From Rothia mucilaginosa (lineage in GTDB: Bacteria > Actinomycetota > Actinomycetes > Actinomycetales > Micrococcaceae): a DNA stretch of 64,000 nucleotides. Both the position numbers and the translations under genes were made by a program. Position 1 is the first letter of the stretch. The number at the start of each line of letters is the position of its first letter. Under the pieces are notes generated by a model that worked only from the letters and a program-made list of their open reading frames with translations, did no database searches and had not been told where the DNA came from. This document shows positions 8,846 to 32,854 of this stretch, piece by piece. The DNA is taken from NCBI RefSeq assembly GCF_001548235.1, contig NZ_AP014938.1:1054001-1118000 (forward strand), written 5' to 3'.

Positions 8846-10867
8846 ATGAGCTGGTTGGCAACTATTCCGCTGCTGCTTTTTGCGGTCGTGTTGGCTTTTG
8901 GCCCGGGCTATGCGATGGGCTGGGCGTTGCGTGTTCCTGCGCGTCTGCGCGTTTTTTATGCGCCGCTACTGACTTTTGCCCTGGTGACTGTCTCCGCGAT
9001 TGTGCTGGGTAAAACCGGTATTCCGTGGAGTCTGATTTCTTTCGTGCCGGTCGCCGCCGTGATGGTGGCTGCTGCCGCGGGTGTGATGCACCTGGTGGGC
9101 CGCCGCTGGCCCTTCGCCGTACCCGACGGCTCCAGCGAGGCGGCAGAGAACTGGGCGGGTAACACTGTGCCCGTCGCCTGGCCCGTTATCGGTGCGGTGC
9201 TGGGTGGTTTCTTGACCCTGCACGCAACCCAGCATATGGTCTTTGGCCCCGAGGCGTTCTCGCAGACCCTCGATAACTCGTTCCATATGAATGCGATCCG
9301 CTGGATTCAGGAGCACGGAGACGCCTCCAGCCTGACCATGGGCGCGGTTGCCGCTGCGAATCAGGAACCTACTTTTTATCCTGCGGGCTGGCACGACTTC
9401 GTGTACCTGATTTACAGCACGACCGGCACGAGCATCGCTACGGCAACCATTGTCATGATTCTGCTGGCGGCGGGCATTATTTGGCCCTGCTCCCTGGTGG
9501 CAATGTGCTTGAGTATTCCGCATCTGCGCCCCCTGCAGGCGCTCGCTATTCCGGCGCTGACCTGCGGTTTCTTTGCGTTCCCCGGTCTGCTGCTGTTCTG
9601 GGGTGTGCTCTTCCCGAACCTTCTTGGTTACGCCCTGCTGCCCGCGTTCGTGGCGCTGCTGCTGCACATGATTCAGCTCATGGTGCGCCGCGAGTATTCC
9701 TTCGTGCTGTCCCTGTCGCTGACGATTCTGGTGGGCCTGGGCGGTTTGGCTCTGGTGCATCCGAACGCCGTGGTTTCTGCCGCCGTGTTTGCTGTGCCCA
9801 TGCTCCTGGGTGGCGTGGTGCAGGTGCTGCGTGCACGCGGCGCGTCCACGCGTGAGCGTCTGGTGGGTACCGGCGTGCTGGTGGCGCTCATCGCCGGATG
9901 CGTCAGTATCTGGTTGACGTTGCGTCCGAGCGAGGAAGCCAGCGACCTGTGGACTGCCATCATGAGCGAGGGCGAGGCGGTCTACCAGTTCCTGTTCCTG
10001 GGCCTGGAGAACGCAAACCCGCTGGGCGGTAATTTTGCTCCCGCATATCTGCTGGGGTTCTTGGCGCTGTGGGGTGTTGGTTACCTGCTGTACAAGCGCC
10101 GTAACCTGTGGCTGATTGGCAGCTGGATGCTCGTCGGCTACATGTGGATTGTTGCGGCTTCGGTGCCGCGCGGTGATTTCCGCCTGCTGATGGTTGCTCC
10201 CTGGTACACCGACCACTTCCGCCTGGCGGCTCTGGTGGTGTTCCCCGCAGTGCTTCTTGCCGGTATCGGTCTGGGTGGCACCGTGGAGGGCCTCTTCGTG
10301 CGCATCATGCATGCTATTCCGCGTGAGAAGCACGCGAAGATTGCCCCTGCGATGATGGGTGCCTCCATGGTGTTGGTGCTCGCGGTTGCGGGCCTGTCTT
10401 CCCGTACCCAGGCAATGCACGACGCAACCTTGCAGGTGGCGAACAGGTATCAGGTGACCCCGACCTCCGACATCCTGAACCAGGATGAGATGAACGTCAT
10501 TAACGAGATCCAGAAGATCGTTCCCAAGGGCGACGTCATTGCGAACAACCCCTGGGACGGTAGCGCCTACATTTACGCGCTGGCTGACCGTCACCTGACC
10601 AGCTACCACTTCGAGTTCCAGACCTCCCCGAAGTATGAGCCAATCCTGAAGGATTTGAAGGATGCCCGCACGAACCCGGAAGTCTGCCGCGTCGTGAACG
10701 AGTACAACGTCCACTGGTACGTGCACTTGGAGAACCAGGGCAACTTCGGTCCCTCCCAGCAGAAGAACTATGACGGCATGGTTGCTGCTATCGGTACGGA
10801 CGTTCTGACCCCGGTGTACTCTTCGGGTCCGATGACTCTGTACCGTATTAGCGCGTGCGATAACTAA
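8846..10867 (+). CDS. DUF6541 family polytopic membrane protein
   Basis: A 673-residue membrane protein with roughly a dozen hydrophobic helices and a C-terminal soluble part (from about residue 535). Its pattern resembles the actinobacterial DUF6541 family: FGPGYAMGW at the N-terminus, FHMNAIRWIQEHGDAS in the first large loop, TFYPAGWHDFVYLIY after it, and a soluble tail with IPKGDVIANNPWDGSAYIYA-type sequence. The overall design is that of a GT-C-like enzyme, with a long first loop rich in acidic and aromatic residues, but activity is unproven. ATG 8846 is chosen over GTG 8828 because GGAGAAGAGGG precedes it. It is the first gene of a five-gene polysaccharide cluster. Confidence 0.82.
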   Translation: MSWLATIPLLLFAVVLAFGPGYAMGWALRVPARLRVFYAPLLTFALVTVSAIVLGKTGIPWSLISFVPVAAVMVAAAAGVMHLVGRRWPFAVPDGSSEAAENWAGNTVPVAWPVIGAVLGGFLTLHATQHMVFGPEAFSQTLDNSFHMNAIRWIQEHGDASSLTMGAVAAANQEPTFYPAGWHDFVYLIYSTTGTSIATATIVMILLAAGIIWPCSLVAMCLSIPHLRPLQALAIPALTCGFFAFPGLLLFWGVLFPNLLGYALLPAFVALLLHMIQLMVRREYSFVLSLSLTILVGLGGLALVHPNAVVSAAVFAVPMLLGGVVQVLRARGASTRERLVGTGVLVALIAGCVSIWLTLRPSEEASDLWTAIMSEGEAVYQFLFLGLENANPLGGNFAPAYLLGFLALWGVGYLLYKRRNLWLIGSWMLVGYMWIVAASVPRGDFRLLMVAPWYTDHFRLAALVVFPAVLLAGIGLGGTVEGLFVRIMHAIPREKHAKIAPAMMGASMVLVLAVAGLSSRTQAMHDATLQVANRYQVTPTSDILNQDEMNVINEIQKIVPKGDVIANNPWDGSAYIYALADRHLTSYHFEFQTSPKYEPILKDLKDARTNPEVCRVVNEYNVHWYVHLENQGNFGPSQQKNYDGMVAAIGTDVLTPVYSSGPMTLYRISACDN

Positions 10868-22526: not shown

Positions 22527-23882
22527 TTGTCTACCAACCACGGTACTGAGGAAAAAAGCAACAGCGTATGGCGCCTCCTCATTAACTTTCTGCTTTACGT
22601 CTCTCCGGTCGCACTGCTGACCACCGTCTTCCCCATCGTCACCCCGACCATTAACCGGTACAACCTCGATGGTGTCCCCCTGATCCAGGTGATCCTGGCA
22701 GCGTCCATTACCGTTCCTTGGCTCAGCCAGGCGGCCTGCCTGCCCCTGTACCGTGCTATCCAGATGGAGCACAAGAAGATTGCGGACGCCCGCGAAGGCC
22801 TGCGCATTCACGCTGAAACCCTTGAGCACCAGCTCAAGCGCGCCGAAGCGCGAGCCGTACGCGCACGCATGTCCGAACCGCAGTTCCAGGACATTACCGA
22901 CCTGACCGCGTTCACCCGCAACTGGCTTTACCTCTTCTTCATGACCATGCCGCTGGTACTGATCTTTGCCGTACCGGTCGCCCTCGTCCTGCACTGGACC
23001 CCGACTGCATTCGGCGCGTTCTTCGTCCTGGGCGTTCTCAACATCGCGTTCGCGCAGCTGCTGGTCATCCCGAACCTTGCGAAGAACCGCATCATCTGGT
23101 TCATCGCGTGGCTTGGTTACACTCTTGCCCTGTACTTCTTCCCGAAGGAATGGTTCCTGCCGCCGCTGGTTGGTTCGCTCATCCTGCTGGTGAGCCTCGG
23201 CAAGGACCTGGTGCACCTGCTGCACTTCGCGCGCATCCCGCTCAAGGACATTGCGCTCGACGCCCTGCGCGGCTTCTTCACCGGCTCCATCATCTGGGCC
23301 GATAAGTACATGCTCTTCCTGGTCACCGGCGGCGAAATCAACGTCGTGGCGATCTACCTGAGCCTAATCCCCTGCGTTATCGCCTACAACTACTTCTTCG
23401 TGGTGGAGGCAGACCGCGTCAACGCAAGCATCCAGCACCTGTGGACCATCTTCGACCGCCTGCCCTACAAGGGTGTTCAGGAGGAGTCTTCCAAGGCTCT
23501 GGGTGCTTCTAACCGCGCGATCCGCAACTCCCTGCTGATTTACATCGCCAGCGCCATTGTCACTGGCATCCTGATGTACATCTTCCTGCCGCAGTCCTAC
23601 CCGCTGGCGCTCTCCGGTCTGGTCGTCGCGTTCCTCTTCGTTGCAGTGGCACTGCTGATCTACCAGATCGAGTACATGACCATGTACGTCACCGTGCAGC
23701 TGCTCTCCGCGGCGCACCTGGTGCTGCTCTTCATCTCCTTCATGATTCTGCCCAACGAGACCGGCTATCTGCCCATCATCGTGGGCGAGGCAGTGCTCAC
23801 CTTCGCGTGCTACCGCGTCTACCGTCAGGCGTGGGCAACACCTGAGTACTCCCTCTTCTGGCGTCGAGCCCTCGCCTGGTAA
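22527..23882 (+). CDS. pelG: PelG-like exopolysaccharide transport membrane protein
   Basis: A 451-residue polytopic protein with about twelve hydrophobic helices and one basic, coiled-coil-like cytoplasmic loop (HKKIADAREGLRIHAETLEH, residues ~75-110). P. aeruginosa PelG, a MOP-superfamily protein that works with PelF in Pel export, is about 456 residues with the same layout. The motif ADKYMLFLVTG near residue 255 and the gene directly behind it (PelF-like) support the call; taken alone it would only be a multi-TM protein. TTG 22527 is forced because an in-frame TGA lies at 22512-22514. There is no good ribosome-binding site. It is separated from PelF by 33 bases. Confidence 0.72.
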   Translation: MSTNHGTEEKSNSVWRLLINFLLYVSPVALLTTVFPIVTPTINRYNLDGVPLIQVILAASITVPWLSQAACLPLYRAIQMEHKKIADAREGLRIHAETLEHQLKRAEARAVRARMSEPQFQDITDLTAFTRNWLYLFFMTMPLVLIFAVPVALVLHWTPTAFGAFFVLGVLNIAFAQLLVIPNLAKNRIIWFIAWLGYTLALYFFPKEWFLPPLVGSLILLVSLGKDLVHLLHFARIPLKDIALDALRGFFTGSIIWADKYMLFLVTGGEINVVAIYLSLIPCVIAYNYFFVVEADRVNASIQHLWTIFDRLPYKGVQEESSKALGASNRAIRNSLLIYIASAIVTGILMYIFLPQSYPLALSGLVVAFLFVAVALLIYQIEYMTMYVTVQLLSAAHLVLLFISFMILPNETGYLPIIVGEAVLTFACYRVYRQAWATPEYSLFWRRALAW

Positions 23883-23915
23883 GAACCGCACGGTCCGCGA
23901 AAGATACATACGACA

Positions 23916-25631
23916 ATGACTGAACAGATGTACCGAAACCACTACGCGCCGCTGCAGCTTCTGGCTCCCGGCCCCCACTACAGCGACCCCGAATACCCGG
24001 ACGTTGACGTCGCCATCATCATGGAATCCACCTACCCCTACCTCAAGGGTGGTGTGTCTGCGGTGGTGCACGATATCGTCTGCGAAAACCCGGATCTGAC
24101 CTACGGCATTATTCACATCGCCTGGGATAAGAACTCCCCCCACGAAGACCTCTACGGCATGCCCGAGAACGTCAAGTGGGTCAAGGTGCTGTACCTGAGC
24201 CTGGATGTCAACCGTGACGCCTTCGCGGAAGCCTGCGACCCCTCCGCACTGCGCATGAGCTTTGCGGAGCGTCAGGCACTCACCCAGCGCCTCATGGACG
24301 GCTTCAGCGCCCTCATCGCCGGCGACGTGAACCCCCTCTGGAAGCTCTACGACGAAGGCATCAACCCCGCAACCCGCAGCTACAACCTCTTCGGCCTCTT
24401 CGGAACCCGCGAGTTCATGCAGGCGATTGCGGGCCTGGGTTTCTTCTCTGAGGTGCCCTTCGGTGAGCTCTTCTGGAAGGTGCGCGATTTCGTCTCCATC
24501 CTCTTTGCGCTCCTGCACGAGCGGATGCCGCACGCCCGCGTCTACCACGCCCACACCACCGGCTACGCGTCGCTCATCGCCGCCGCAGCCGCACGTGACC
24601 ACGGCACCAGCTTCCTGCTGACCGAGCACAACCTCTACATTCGCGACACCGTGAACACCAAGCTCGAACGCAACATGGCGAAGCCCGTCACCACCGACTA
24701 CGCCTTCCTCAACGAGGAGCGTGAGCACCCCGGCCTGGGCCCGGTCACCCTCGACGAGCGTGCCTGGTGTGTCTGGTTCGTTGAAATGGGACGCTTCTGC
24801 TACCCCAGTGCAGACATGGCAACCTACCTGTACCCCAAGGCGCTGGAAGAGGCGCGCGGTATTGGTGCGCCCATCGACCAGATGAACGAGGGCGAGAAGG
24901 ACCGCGCAATCATCCTGCCCAACGGTATGCTCATCGAGTCCGTGGCGGAAGCCTACTACGCCCGCCAGGCGGCGCGTGCGCGCATCCTCGCTGAGGGCCG
25001 CGGCCACGTGTGGCGCTTCGTGTTCATCGCCCGTGTGGTGCCCATTAAGGGCCTGACCGACCTGATTCGCTCCCTCGCGGTGCTGCGCGATCAGGGCCTG
25101 GTGAACTTCCACCTGGACGTGCTCGGCCCCAAGGACCACCTGCCCGAGTACTACGAGCTGTGCCTGCGCACCATCGAAGAGCTCAACATGGGCGAGTACA
25201 TCACCTTCCACGGCACCGTGAACGTGCGTGCGATGCTCGACCGCTTCGACCTGCTGCTCATGCCCAGCTACAATGAGGGTCAGCCGATCGTGGCGCTCGA
25301 GGCGATGGCTGCGTCCATCCCGCTGGTCAGCACCGACGTGGGCGGTATGTCCCAGCTCATCGATGATGTGCTGGTCGCCCCCGACGGCCACGAAATCGGT
25401 AACTGCGGTATCTTGACCATCCCCGGCGATATTCACGGCTTCGCGGCGGCGCTGCGCACCCTCATGGAGGAGCCCAGCATCTACGAACGCTACTGTGTGA
25501 ACGCTTACGACCGTATCGTCAGCTTCTTCCAGCTGAAACTGGTCATGGACCGCTACAACACGATCTACCGCGAGCTGGGCAAGCTGCCCCCTCGCGCCCC
25601 CGAATTCGACCCGGAGTACGATGGCGAATAA
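23916..25631 (+). CDS. pelF: PelF-like GT4 glycosyltransferase
   Basis: A 571-residue GT-B enzyme of family GT4. Near the N-terminus, DVAIIMESTYPYLKGGVSAV is the PelF hallmark (E-x-TYPY-x-x-GGVS). TEHNLYIRDTVN near residue 240 corresponds to the conserved TEHGIYxRE segment. The donor site is intact: RVVPIKGLTDLIRS and the E-x7-E-type motif in PSYNEGQPIVALEAMA. PelF polymerises the Pel backbone (GalNAc/GlcNAc-rich) from UDP-sugars in the cytosol, next to PelG. This protein is about 60 residues longer than P. aeruginosa PelF; the extra length includes an insert around residues 245-320. Its stop overlaps the next gene by 11 bases. Confidence 0.85.
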   Translation: MTEQMYRNHYAPLQLLAPGPHYSDPEYPDVDVAIIMESTYPYLKGGVSAVVHDIVCENPDLTYGIIHIAWDKNSPHEDLYGMPENVKWVKVLYLSLDVNRDAFAEACDPSALRMSFAERQALTQRLMDGFSALIAGDVNPLWKLYDEGINPATRSYNLFGLFGTREFMQAIAGLGFFSEVPFGELFWKVRDFVSILFALLHERMPHARVYHAHTTGYASLIAAAAARDHGTSFLLTEHNLYIRDTVNTKLERNMAKPVTTDYAFLNEEREHPGLGPVTLDERAWCVWFVEMGRFCYPSADMATYLYPKALEEARGIGAPIDQMNEGEKDRAIILPNGMLIESVAEAYYARQAARARILAEGRGHVWRFVFIARVVPIKGLTDLIRSLAVLRDQGLVNFHLDVLGPKDHLPEYYELCLRTIEELNMGEYITFHGTVNVRAMLDRFDLLLMPSYNEGQPIVALEAMAASIPLVSTDVGGMSQLIDDVLVAPDGHEIGNCGILTIPGDIHGFAAALRTLMEEPSIYERYCVNAYDRIVSFFQLKLVMDRYNTIYRELGKLPPRAPEFDPEYDGE

Positions 25632-26817
25632 ACTCACCCGTTTAGGCGGACCCGGCAAGTTTGGTGCCTGGGTCCGCTACGGCGGTAAGCCCATTACCCA
25701 GAAGCAGCTCGATTTTGCGGTCAAGAACTACTCTGTCGCAATCCTGCAGCCCTGGGAACTGGACGCGGCACGCTACCTGAAGAAGCGTGCACCTCAAATG
25801 GTGGTGCTGGCGTATAAGTGCCTGTCCTCCACCCGCTCTTACGAGCCCGGCCCGATTTATTCTTCGGGTGTGTCTTACCCGCTGGCTGTGTCGATGGCGA
25901 ACTCCGGTAAGGATTTCTTCGCCCACCGCCTCAACGGCGACCGTATCGAGTGGAAGGGCTACCCCAAGCACTTCCAGATGCAGGTGTGGAACACCGACTA
26001 CCGCTGGCACTGGGTGGACGCTGTGGTGCGCGAAATGCGCAACTCGCCCTTTGACGGGGTTATGGCGGATAACGACGTGGAGAACGACTACTACGGTCTG
26101 GACCTGCCCATTCAGGGCGTGGAGTCCATGACGAAGATTCGTGAGCACCTGGATTTTCTGGTCGCGTACGCCGGTATTGAGCTGAATAAGATTGGCAAGA
26201 TTCTGGTGCCCAATATTGCTGAGTCGCGTCTGCGTTACGGCAAGTGGGAGCGTCACAGCGCCTACGGTGGCGGCTTTGAGGAGGTGTGGCTCGGCTGGGG
26301 TCCGAACGACTACCTGTCTTCGCCGTACGCCGTGATGCAGGGCCGTGAGATTGCGAACGGCTCGGCGGGCGACGTGAACCTGGGTGCTACTTTTGCGGGC
26401 CTGGGTGGCCGTAGTGCCGCTTCGCAGAAGAAGGTGACGATTCTGCGTACCCCGCTGAGCGACCGCAAGGCTGCGATTACCGGTACGGATGAGAATTTCC
26501 TCTACGGTTTGGCGGGCTTCTGGGTGTTCGGTGGAGGCGCCTTCACCGGCATCAGCGCAACCCACCACGATGCCTACGACGAGATCCCGCACGCCCCGGA
26601 GCTCTCCTACGACCTGGGGGATCCGGTCGGCGGTATTATCGCTCAGAAGACCGCTCAGACTCGTGCCTTTACTCGTGGTTGGGCTGCCCTGAACACCGGC
26701 TCGAAGGATGTGACCGTGAAGGTTCCCTCTCATCTGGTGGATGCGGCAAACCGCCCGGTGCCTTCGAGCTTCACGCTGCGGGCGCATCAGGGTGTGGTGT
26801 ACCGCCGTAAGGCGTAA
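25621..26817 (+). CDS. Glycoside hydrolase-like TIM-barrel protein (GHL15-like)
   Basis: A 398-residue protein resembling the hypothetical glycosyl hydrolase family GHL15. Features: RYGGKPITQKQLDFAVKNYS, ILQPWELDAARYLKKRAP with VVLAYKCLSSTRS (early barrel strands), WNTDYRWHWVDAVVREMR, then FDGVMADNDVENDYYG with acidic residues where barrel glycosidases carry their catalytic Asp/Glu. A small beta-rich tail follows (GWAALNTGSKDVTVKVP to YRRKA). There is no signal peptide or membrane anchor, so it appears cytosolic, unlike PelA. It starts inside the end of pelF (11-base overlap), so it is translationally coupled to it and should act on the same glycan or its precursor. Specificity and activity are unproven. 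Confidence 0.68.
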   Translation: MANKLTRLGGPGKFGAWVRYGGKPITQKQLDFAVKNYSVAILQPWELDAARYLKKRAPQMVVLAYKCLSSTRSYEPGPIYSSGVSYPLAVSMANSGKDFFAHRLNGDRIEWKGYPKHFQMQVWNTDYRWHWVDAVVREMRNSPFDGVMADNDVENDYYGLDLPIQGVESMTKIREHLDFLVAYAGIELNKIGKILVPNIAESRLRYGKWERHSAYGGGFEEVWLGWGPNDYLSSPYAVMQGREIANGSAGDVNLGATFAGLGGRSAASQKKVTILRTPLSDRKAAITGTDENFLYGLAGFWVFGGGAFTGISATHHDAYDEIPHAPELSYDLGDPVGGIIAQKTAQTRAFTRGWAALNTGSKDVTVKVPSHLVDAANRPVPSSFTLRAHQGVVYRRKA

Positions 26818-31336: not shown

Positions 31337-32854
31337 ATGAACAACGTGGAATGGACCCCCGAATGGCTTGCTGAAACCATCAAACTACTGCGTACTCACG
31401 GCAGCGATACGCAGTTCATCGAGGTCAAAAAAGCCCACGGAGGCTACCCTGGAAGCCTAGATGCAACCCTGAGTAGCTTCTCCAATAGTTCCACGGGCGG
31501 AATCATTATCTGCGGCCTCGATGAGAATAATGACTTTGCACCTGTAGGCGTATACGACCCTGCAGACCTAGAAAAAACTCTCGGCAACAAGCTCCGCAGG
31601 GGCCTCAAGCCGCCGAACACCATGGAATCCGGCACCATCCTCTACGAAGACGCCAAAATCTTTGTTGCCACCATCCCTCCGCTGCCTCCCTACGAACGCC
31701 CCGCCTACATTGGCGGTAAAGCGTACGTGCGTTCCGGCGATGGCGACCACGAAATGAGCCGCCACGAAACCGACCTGATGGTGGCTCAGCGGACACGCAT
31801 CGGATTCGATGAGGAACCGGTGGAATACACCTCCCTGGCTGACCTAGATGAAGGCCTCAAAACTGCCTATCTGCGAGACGTACGCGCTAAATCACGCCGC
31901 CTTGCTACAAGCTCCGATGAAGAGGTGCTCCGCCGCAAGGGAATTATTGCCCTCGGAACCGACAACCTTTCCCTTGCGGGCTTGTACGCCTTGGGTGCCT
32001 ACCCTCAAGAGTTCAGGCCCTCGCTCAAAGTCACCGGAGTCGTCATCGACCCAAGCGGTAAAGTCCGTAACCTCGACAAATTCGAAGCGGACGGCCCCAT
32101 CCCCGCCATGCTCGAAGAGACCCTGGCATGGGTCAAGCGGAACCTGGCACACCCGGTTGTTGAGCTGACCAATGGGCACCTCGTCAACGGGCAGGAAGTG
32201 CCCGATATTGCCCTTCGCGAGATCCTGTCGAATGCGCTCGTACACCGCAGCCTCAACCCCAAAGCAGATACCGAAGAGGTGCGCGTCAGGATTTTCCCCG
32301 ACCGAATCTCTGTAGAAAACCCCGGCGGCCTATACGGAATCACACTCCAGCGCCTGCAAGAGTACGGCGAACGTTCCCGCGTGAACGACCGCCTGTATGA
32401 CGTGTGCACGCACGTAACAACCCCCGACGACGGATACCGAGTCATCGAGGGTGAGGGTAGCGGCATCTACACGGCGCAGGAGGCGGTGCGTCAGGCAGGG
32501 CTGAAACCCATCCAGTTCATTGACGGGGTCATTCGTTTTACTGCGATTATCAGCAGGGAGCCTCTGGATGGTGCTCATGCCGCTGACGTCGGTTCACCGC
32601 AGCAGAAGTCGGACGTAGACCCGCGCCAATCGTCACCTACGGTTCCCAGTAGCCGTCAGGAGGCGGTGCTCCTCGCTCTGCGCTCGCTACGCCACCCCGC
32701 CGGTATCGACGACATCATGGGTGCTCTTCCAGAGCCTTTTGCTGAGCTGCAGAAACCGCAGGTCCGGTACGTCCTCACGAAGCTCCTTCAAGAAGGAGTT
32801 ATTACCCGTGAAGGCGGTCGAGGCAACCGCAACACCGTGTACCGCCTGGCCTAA
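31337..32854 (+). CDS. AlbA_2/Schlafen-type DNA-binding ATPase-like regulator
   Basis: A 505-residue protein of the COG2865 type. The N-terminal AlbA_2 domain (residues ~15-150) has FIEVKKA with the E-x-K pair and SSTGGIIICGLDENND. The middle/C-terminal part has a GHKL-like ATP site: REILSNALVHRS (N-box, about residue 300) and VENPGGLYG. Residues ~430-505 look like a winged helix (LLALRSLRHPAGIDDIMGALP ... VLTKLLQEGVITREGG). These proteins are described as putative transcription regulators or defence-related nucleases. Codon choice is ordinary for the window. The palindrome array directly upstream suggests that it controls itself. Confidence 0.85.
   Translation: MNNVEWTPEWLAETIKLLRTHGSDTQFIEVKKAHGGYPGSLDATLSSFSNSSTGGIIICGLDENNDFAPVGVYDPADLEKTLGNKLRRGLKPPNTMESGTILYEDAKIFVATIPPLPPYERPAYIGGKAYVRSGDGDHEMSRHETDLMVAQRTRIGFDEEPVEYTSLADLDEGLKTAYLRDVRAKSRRLATSSDEEVLRRKGIIALGTDNLSLAGLYALGAYPQEFRPSLKVTGVVIDPSGKVRNLDKFEADGPIPAMLEETLAWVKRNLAHPVVELTNGHLVNGQEVPDIALREILSNALVHRSLNPKADTEEVRVRIFPDRISVENPGGLYGITLQRLQEYGERSRVNDRLYDVCTHVTTPDDGYRVIEGEGSGIYTAQEAVRQAGLKPIQFIDGVIRFTAIISREPLDGAHAADVGSPQQKSDVDPRQSSPTVPSSRQEAVLLALRSLRHPAGIDDIMGALPEPFAELQKPQVRYVLTKLLQEGVITREGGRGNRNTVYRLA

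Follow-up and report, generated by a model that had tools for sequence, protein, structure and literature searches.

A three-gene actinobacterial locus that joins a PelF-family glycosyltransferase to a MOP-like membrane protein and a GHL15 barrel protein

The DNA considered here is a 64,000-nucleotide stretch of the Rothia mucilaginosa genome (assembly GCF_001548235.1, contig NZ_AP014938.1, positions 1,054,001 to 1,118,000 of the forward strand), which we call the window; the genome itself is a single contig of 2.29 Mb. It carries three coupled plus-strand genes, named G, F and H in their order (Table 1); 33 bases separate G from F, and F overlaps H by 11 bases. We read this trio as a compact actinobacterial exopolysaccharide machine that is related to the Pel core and independent of cyclic di-GMP (c-di-GMP), and put the probability of that reading at about 0.6. 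A first-pass annotation of the window had placed the three genes correctly and proposed a reduced Pel-like system; its account is partly supported by the results below.

The connection to Pel runs through F, which its sequence assigns to the PelF family. F scores 205.8 bits against the NCBIfam PelF equivalog NF038011 (cut-off 100) over model positions 1-489 of 489, and its Pfam domains are DUF3492 (PF11997, 133.3 bits) and a glycosyltransferase family 4 (GT4) domain (PF13692, 86 bits). The PelF hallmark seen in the first pass is borne by the stretch ESTYPYLKGGVS; the pattern ESTYP(Y/F)LKGG(V/L)S recurs in 12/12 rows of an alignment of F proteins (A3), and residues E454 and E462 are invariant in the same 12 rows, an E-x7-E arrangement that we take to be the characteristic GT4 pair. 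In a tree of 27 proteins, a 96/97 branch splits 15 F and 8 PelF rows from 4 other GT4 rows, so that F does not cluster with unrelated GT4 enzymes; the F rows form their own side (94/96, unstarred), as do the PelF rows (99/99). Of the PelF rows, four carry the annotation pelF and four were taken as PelF since they are positioned before a match to PF16933 (PelG). Two GT4 loci of the window's own genome, L003 and L004, were left out for want of a usable match. Because the program flagged long branches, this tree is offered as support rather than proof.

An intracellular storage polymer would give the same genes another meaning, F being a glycogen-synthase-like GT4 enzyme and H the cytosolic enzyme that degrades its product. 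F does match glycogen synthase models weakly (46 bits) and H lacks an evident signal peptide; however, F fails the glycogen cut-off of 302.4 and passes that of PelF, and a MOP-like transporter stands beside the pair in 53/54 related loci (see below). We consider such a function very unlikely.

G occupies the place of PelG and has the size of PelG, and to that extent the earlier label "PelG-like" stands; membership in the PelG family does not, as no Pfam or NCBIfam model matches G at E<=1. When G was compared with PelG and MOP proteins, the sequence profiles gave no match, whereas the predicted structure has a fold like that of MOP flippases. G is probably a MOP-like membrane protein in place of PelG and may be distant kin of it; canonical PelG is, we assume, itself a member of the MOP group. 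An extra loop of about 35 residues is found in G of the window and of L025-L028, and is shorter in the remaining aligned relatives. Many G proteins from outside Rothia (alignment A5; e.g., L105:6784-8241) are extended at the N-terminus by a stretch containing hydrophobic segments, which Rothia G lacks.

A different division of labor is that the product which F and G make and flip is a lipid-linked saccharide or a glycolipid, not a free polymer, with G acting as a Wzx-like flippase, F as a GT4 enzyme of the lipid-linked chain, and H as a trimming enzyme. The PelF equivalog score of F argues against this, as does the gene content of the 54 related loci: no polymerase or ligase cluster is common to many of them, and beyond the trio itself the next commonest gene cluster (from our own gene caller) is present in 13. 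This explanation is unlikely, although it has more to recommend it than the storage polymer.

H matches Pfam GHL15 (PF14885) with 223.4 bits (cut-off 27) over model positions 1-271 of 271, and is modeled as a TIM barrel (pLDDT 92.2), bearing out its first description as a GHL15-like barrel protein. Its fold is that of the barrel group GH168/GH191/GH114/GH166, with GH168 fucanases as nearest structural neighbors, followed by the GH191, GH114 and PelA-hydrolase alpha-galactosaminidases. Best among the matches are GH168 endo-fucanases (PDB 9jom, 9nhf and others), aligned over H residues 7-396; 9nhf was deposited as a GHL15 protein, and a DGV-x-x-D stretch is common to GH168 and H. Identity to H is 12-16% for GH168, whose substrate is fucan, and 9-12% for the GH191, GH114 and PelA-hydrolase structures; from these last H also differs in being leaderless. 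Asp150 and Glu220 are invariant in 46/46 aligned H proteins. The former ends strand 146-150 and is profile-aligned with the DGxxxD Asp region of GH168; the latter ends strand 217-220, in a region that the profiles align with uncertainty. Their spacing of 70 is near the Asp-Glu spacings given in the available part of PMC12054363 for GH191 (69, 68) and FsGH114 (68).

No signal peptide is evident in H, as had been observed in the first pass, and H would on this ground be located in the cytosol. Across the 46 aligned H proteins, mean hydropathy over 12 residues peaks at 1.21 in the N-terminal 45 residues, by a crude measure that takes protein starts from our own gene calls. This value speaks against the idea that H acts extracellularly after leaderless export, which would make the locus a Pel-like operon that includes a PelA-type hydrolase; so does the occurrence, in some loci, of a separate secreted-looking protein. 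PelA-type hydrolases act outside the cytoplasm, which favors the idea, and two distant homologues of H from Pseudonocardiales (L144 and L129) appear lipoprotein-like by eye. On balance, we find extracellular action by H improbable.

The trio occurs together in the genus Rothia, where, among 35 genomes, 16 encode G, 15 encode H, and 15 give a PelF score above the cut-off. G occurs without H in genome G031, whose contig ends inside F, and without an over-cut-off F in G027, where the trio is reduced to fragments (L030:8000-9800). The order G-F-H is kept in L025-L039 as far as contigs and broken copies permit; the flanks vary, with dehydrogenase and GAPDH genes in some and different genes elsewhere. 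Those in the window, a large glutamate dehydrogenase-like gene and a GAPDH-like gene named by eye, agree with the earlier description. A scan of public genomes found 106 stretches encoding H relatives, of which the best 80 were kept and 26 others lay beyond; the closer set consists of 54 loci (L073-L126), 26 distant ones (L127-L152) being excluded. All 54 have F nearby, and all but L095, a 4.5 kb contig, also have G (53). These loci span Rothia, Kocuria, Arthrobacter, Pseudarthrobacter, Kineococcus, Geodermatophilus, Actinoplanes, and others. Where all three genes were called (50 loci), G and F are on the same strand in 50/50 and F and H in 43/50, H being on the opposite strand in 7; F and H overlap by 4 bases in 26, are separated by 1-2 kb in a few, and in L081 H precedes G-F. 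The distant relatives have weak GT4 matches at most and no G nearby. Since the trio recurs across many actinobacterial genera, an alternative architecture describes it better than local loss; it is not a local oddity, and the first proposal of a reduced system in an actinobacterium is an understatement.

Comparison of the window with L026 yields dN/dS ratios of 0.157 for G, 0.113 for F, and 0.127 for H (0.118 for the neighboring dehydrogenase), and all three genes are therefore under purifying selection. These ratios (0.11-0.16), together with the recurrence of the same three genes as the common core of 54 loci, make it hardly credible that the locus is a nonfunctional, decaying remnant of a canonical Pel operon. 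Broken copies are seen in single genomes: the pieces in G027 and the interruption of all three genes in G001 would fit such a view. In G001 (Rothia aeria AP017895.1; L029:9400-13700, L117), the frame changes may be sequencing error.

Several components of known Pel systems were looked for. GGDEF domains were found in 0/35 Rothia genomes and in 8/14 control genomes; c-di-GMP control in the genus is accordingly unlikely, in keeping with the independence claimed at the outset. The PelD domain (PF16963) was found in 0/35, yet no control genome was positive either. DUF2194, chosen as its position in a pel locus of Cetobacterium is that of PelA, was found in 0/35. GH114 (PF03537) was not found in the window's own genome and is present in 1/35 of the genus (G021, without G); two Polysacc_deac_1 proteins are encoded elsewhere in the window's genome.

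Pel loci of Gram-positive bacteria, some of them actinobacterial and with PelD, are reported in PMC7112168 and PMC7112194. The former describes the operon pelDEADAFG of Bacillus cereus ATCC 10987 and, in some species, fusion of an epimerase domain to PelD. Like that operon, the locus here sets a PelF-family synthase beside a polytopic membrane protein, and the epimerase link has a counterpart in the GalE-type neighbors of some trio relatives. Unlike it, the trio has the order G-F-H, a G unseen by the PelG profile, a leaderless hydrolase-like protein, no PelD or PelA-type partner found, and no GGDEF in the genus. A further comparison is with Gram-positive loci where only pelF and pelG were identified (PMC7112194), which have PelF and PelG without recognized PelD or PelE; the available part of that paper mentions no GHL15 partner and leaves trio membership unstated. 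A description of the trio was not found in the literature, subscription papers and supplements being outside the search. Nor was any paper found that brings PelF together with Actinobacteria, exopolysaccharide, and Arthrobacter, and for PelF, PelG and a glycoside hydrolase together in actinobacteria the 2020 Pel papers were the only result. The available part of the Rothia mucilaginosa genome paper (PMC3667864) contains no polysaccharide, glycosyl- or capsul- words.

The neighborhoods of the 54 loci bear on the product. An epimerase/short-chain dehydrogenase cluster is near the trio in 13/54, and 10 of these 13 have a GalE-like RR-x-GD stretch with Ser four residues past the Asp. We take this column to be the gatekeeper, equivalent to Tyr299 of the E. 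coli enzyme and Cys307 of the human one. Compared with PDB entries, the L083 epimerase is GalE-like throughout, and the same column is Cys in 3enk and Val in 8wop; in the GalE encoded by the window's genome it is Ser. A GalU-like cluster is found in 7/54 loci (one member tested) and a Spherulin4 cluster (PF12138), which we presume to be linked to Sph3/GH135, in 3/54 (two tested). DUF4832/DUF4874 proteins form two clusters, in 9 and 6 loci (15 together) of the 54 (one member of each cluster tested, one with an NPCBM domain), as in L085:11123-12940 and L083:12133-13530. Four annotated pel plasmid regions offer a comparison: galE or polygalactosaminidase is nearby in 3, and in 1 there is none within the stretch shown. 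From the family to which the synthase belongs, the barrel group of H, and the GalE and Spherulin4 neighbors, the product may be an alpha-hexosamine or galactose polymer.

A number of observations weigh against placing the trio in a Pel-related exopolysaccharide pathway. Regarding G, a search of the window's own genome with PF16933 gave no match at E<=0.001, and alignment of G to canonical PelG by hhalign is weak (probability 5.5%, P 0.007), although it runs colinearly to the C-terminus and pairs the W-x-DK and Pro columns. Block shuffles equal the real score in 2/200 cases (the reversed profile scores lower), the comparison weakens with fewer rows (P 0.015, P 0.18), and by Foldseek alone the MOP matches reach E of about 1e-3 at best. 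Regarding H, fucanases are nearer to it than galactosaminidases are; E75, D152, D156, E201, E221 and D317 are as conserved as the proposed pair; and its spacing is unlike that of the PelA hydrolase (GH166, 63) and Ega3 (58), both from the available part of PMC12054363, or that of GH168, where the catalytic D206 and E264 of FunA are 58 apart. On account of the other acids and these spacings, Asp150/Glu220 is a candidate pair only. GHL15 is over its cut-off in 7/396 sampled genomes of the phylum, the window's own and 6 others. Finally, the epimerase and Spherulin4 neighbors sit in genera other than the window's, and the ten Ser-GalE loci are from Pseudarthrobacter/Arthrobacter (nine) and Piscicoccus (one); with 9/10 in one group, they represent few independent events.

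In our reading, the trio is a variant of Pel-type synthesis in which a cytosolic endo-glycosidase would replace the exported PelA hydrolase. F would polymerize a nucleotide sugar at the cytosolic face with retention of configuration, giving alpha linkages; its substrate would most likely be UDP-GalNAc or UDP-Gal supplied by a serine-gatekeeper GalE. The growing chain would be carried outward by G, and H, as a leaderless, retaining-type endo-alpha-glycosidase, may act in the cytosol on nascent or stalled chains for chain-length control, clearance, or primer formation. Some relatives may add a secreted Spherulin4 or other protein outside the cell. The direction of transport by G, the nature of the polymer, and the activity and place of H are all inferred here. 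More tentative still is the broader proposal that a cytosolic enzyme of retaining glycosidase fold is a regular third partner, cutting or transglycosylating the chain before or during export in place of control by PelD, PelE, and exported PelA, and that this arrangement is widespread in actinobacteria; an internal glycosidase, and not c-di-GMP, would then govern the making of the exopolysaccharide.

Were the exopolysaccharide reading correct, many actinobacteria would make a Pel-like matrix polymer from loci that standard pel searches would call incomplete, as the PelG model does not detect G, and PelD and PelA are not found. For oral Rothia, the three genes would be candidates for making a matrix polymer, and the trio would be a minimal system for examining the contributions of c-di-GMP, PelD, and PelE. 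An internal glycosidase that is a conserved part of a synthase would likewise be a new and testable control point.

Table 1. Features of the G-F-H locus, in window coordinates
Feature	Position	Strand	Description
G	22527-23882	+	Polytopic membrane protein, 451 aa, TTG start (TTG likewise in L025, L026)
Longer loop within G	22761..22907 (approximate limits)	+	Alignments A2, A5; long helix 52-101 in model
F	23916-25631	+	PelF-family GT4 glycosyltransferase, 571 aa, ATG; DUF3492 + Glyco_trans_1_4 domains; E454-x7-E462
H	25621-26817	+	GHL15 (beta/alpha)8-barrel, 398 aa, ATG; candidate catalytic pair Asp150/Glu220

Alignments A1-A3 were made without L025 (a near copy) and without L029 and L030 (broken genes); A3 also omits F of L036 (frame change), A2 omits G of L039 (contig end), and H is missing from L035. 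For A7 and A8, loci L095, L107, L113, L117, L119, L122, L124, and L125 were excluded beforehand, along with gene calls of unusual length.

The closest named relative of H, among the best 80 of 106, is in Rothia mucilaginosa 141_RMUC (L073; 86% identity), in a scan that may omit records from the genome to which the window belongs. Distant homologues at 30-42% identity occur in Amycolatopsis, Lentzea, and relatives; those of L129 and L144 lie, by eye, in a different exopolysaccharide cluster. In five Arthrobacter-type loci (L099:11367-12626, L100:11195-12649, L105, L106, and L107), H is followed by a secreted-looking protein, which has no Pfam match (one member tested) and is a candidate extracellular hydrolase for the same polymer. 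At L026:12128-12205, some 740 bases downstream of intact H, the final 26 codons of H recur at 92% identity, perhaps a relic of local duplication. A contig labeled Vibrio cholerae strain 35D carries an actinobacterial trio (L107:7049-11077; 48% identity to the window's H), and this assembly looks mislabeled or contaminated. Elsewhere in the window are a DUF6541 protein of 627 aa (8984-10867; 524 bits) and a protein with Schlafen AlbA_2 and RecG-C-like ATPase domains (31337-32854).
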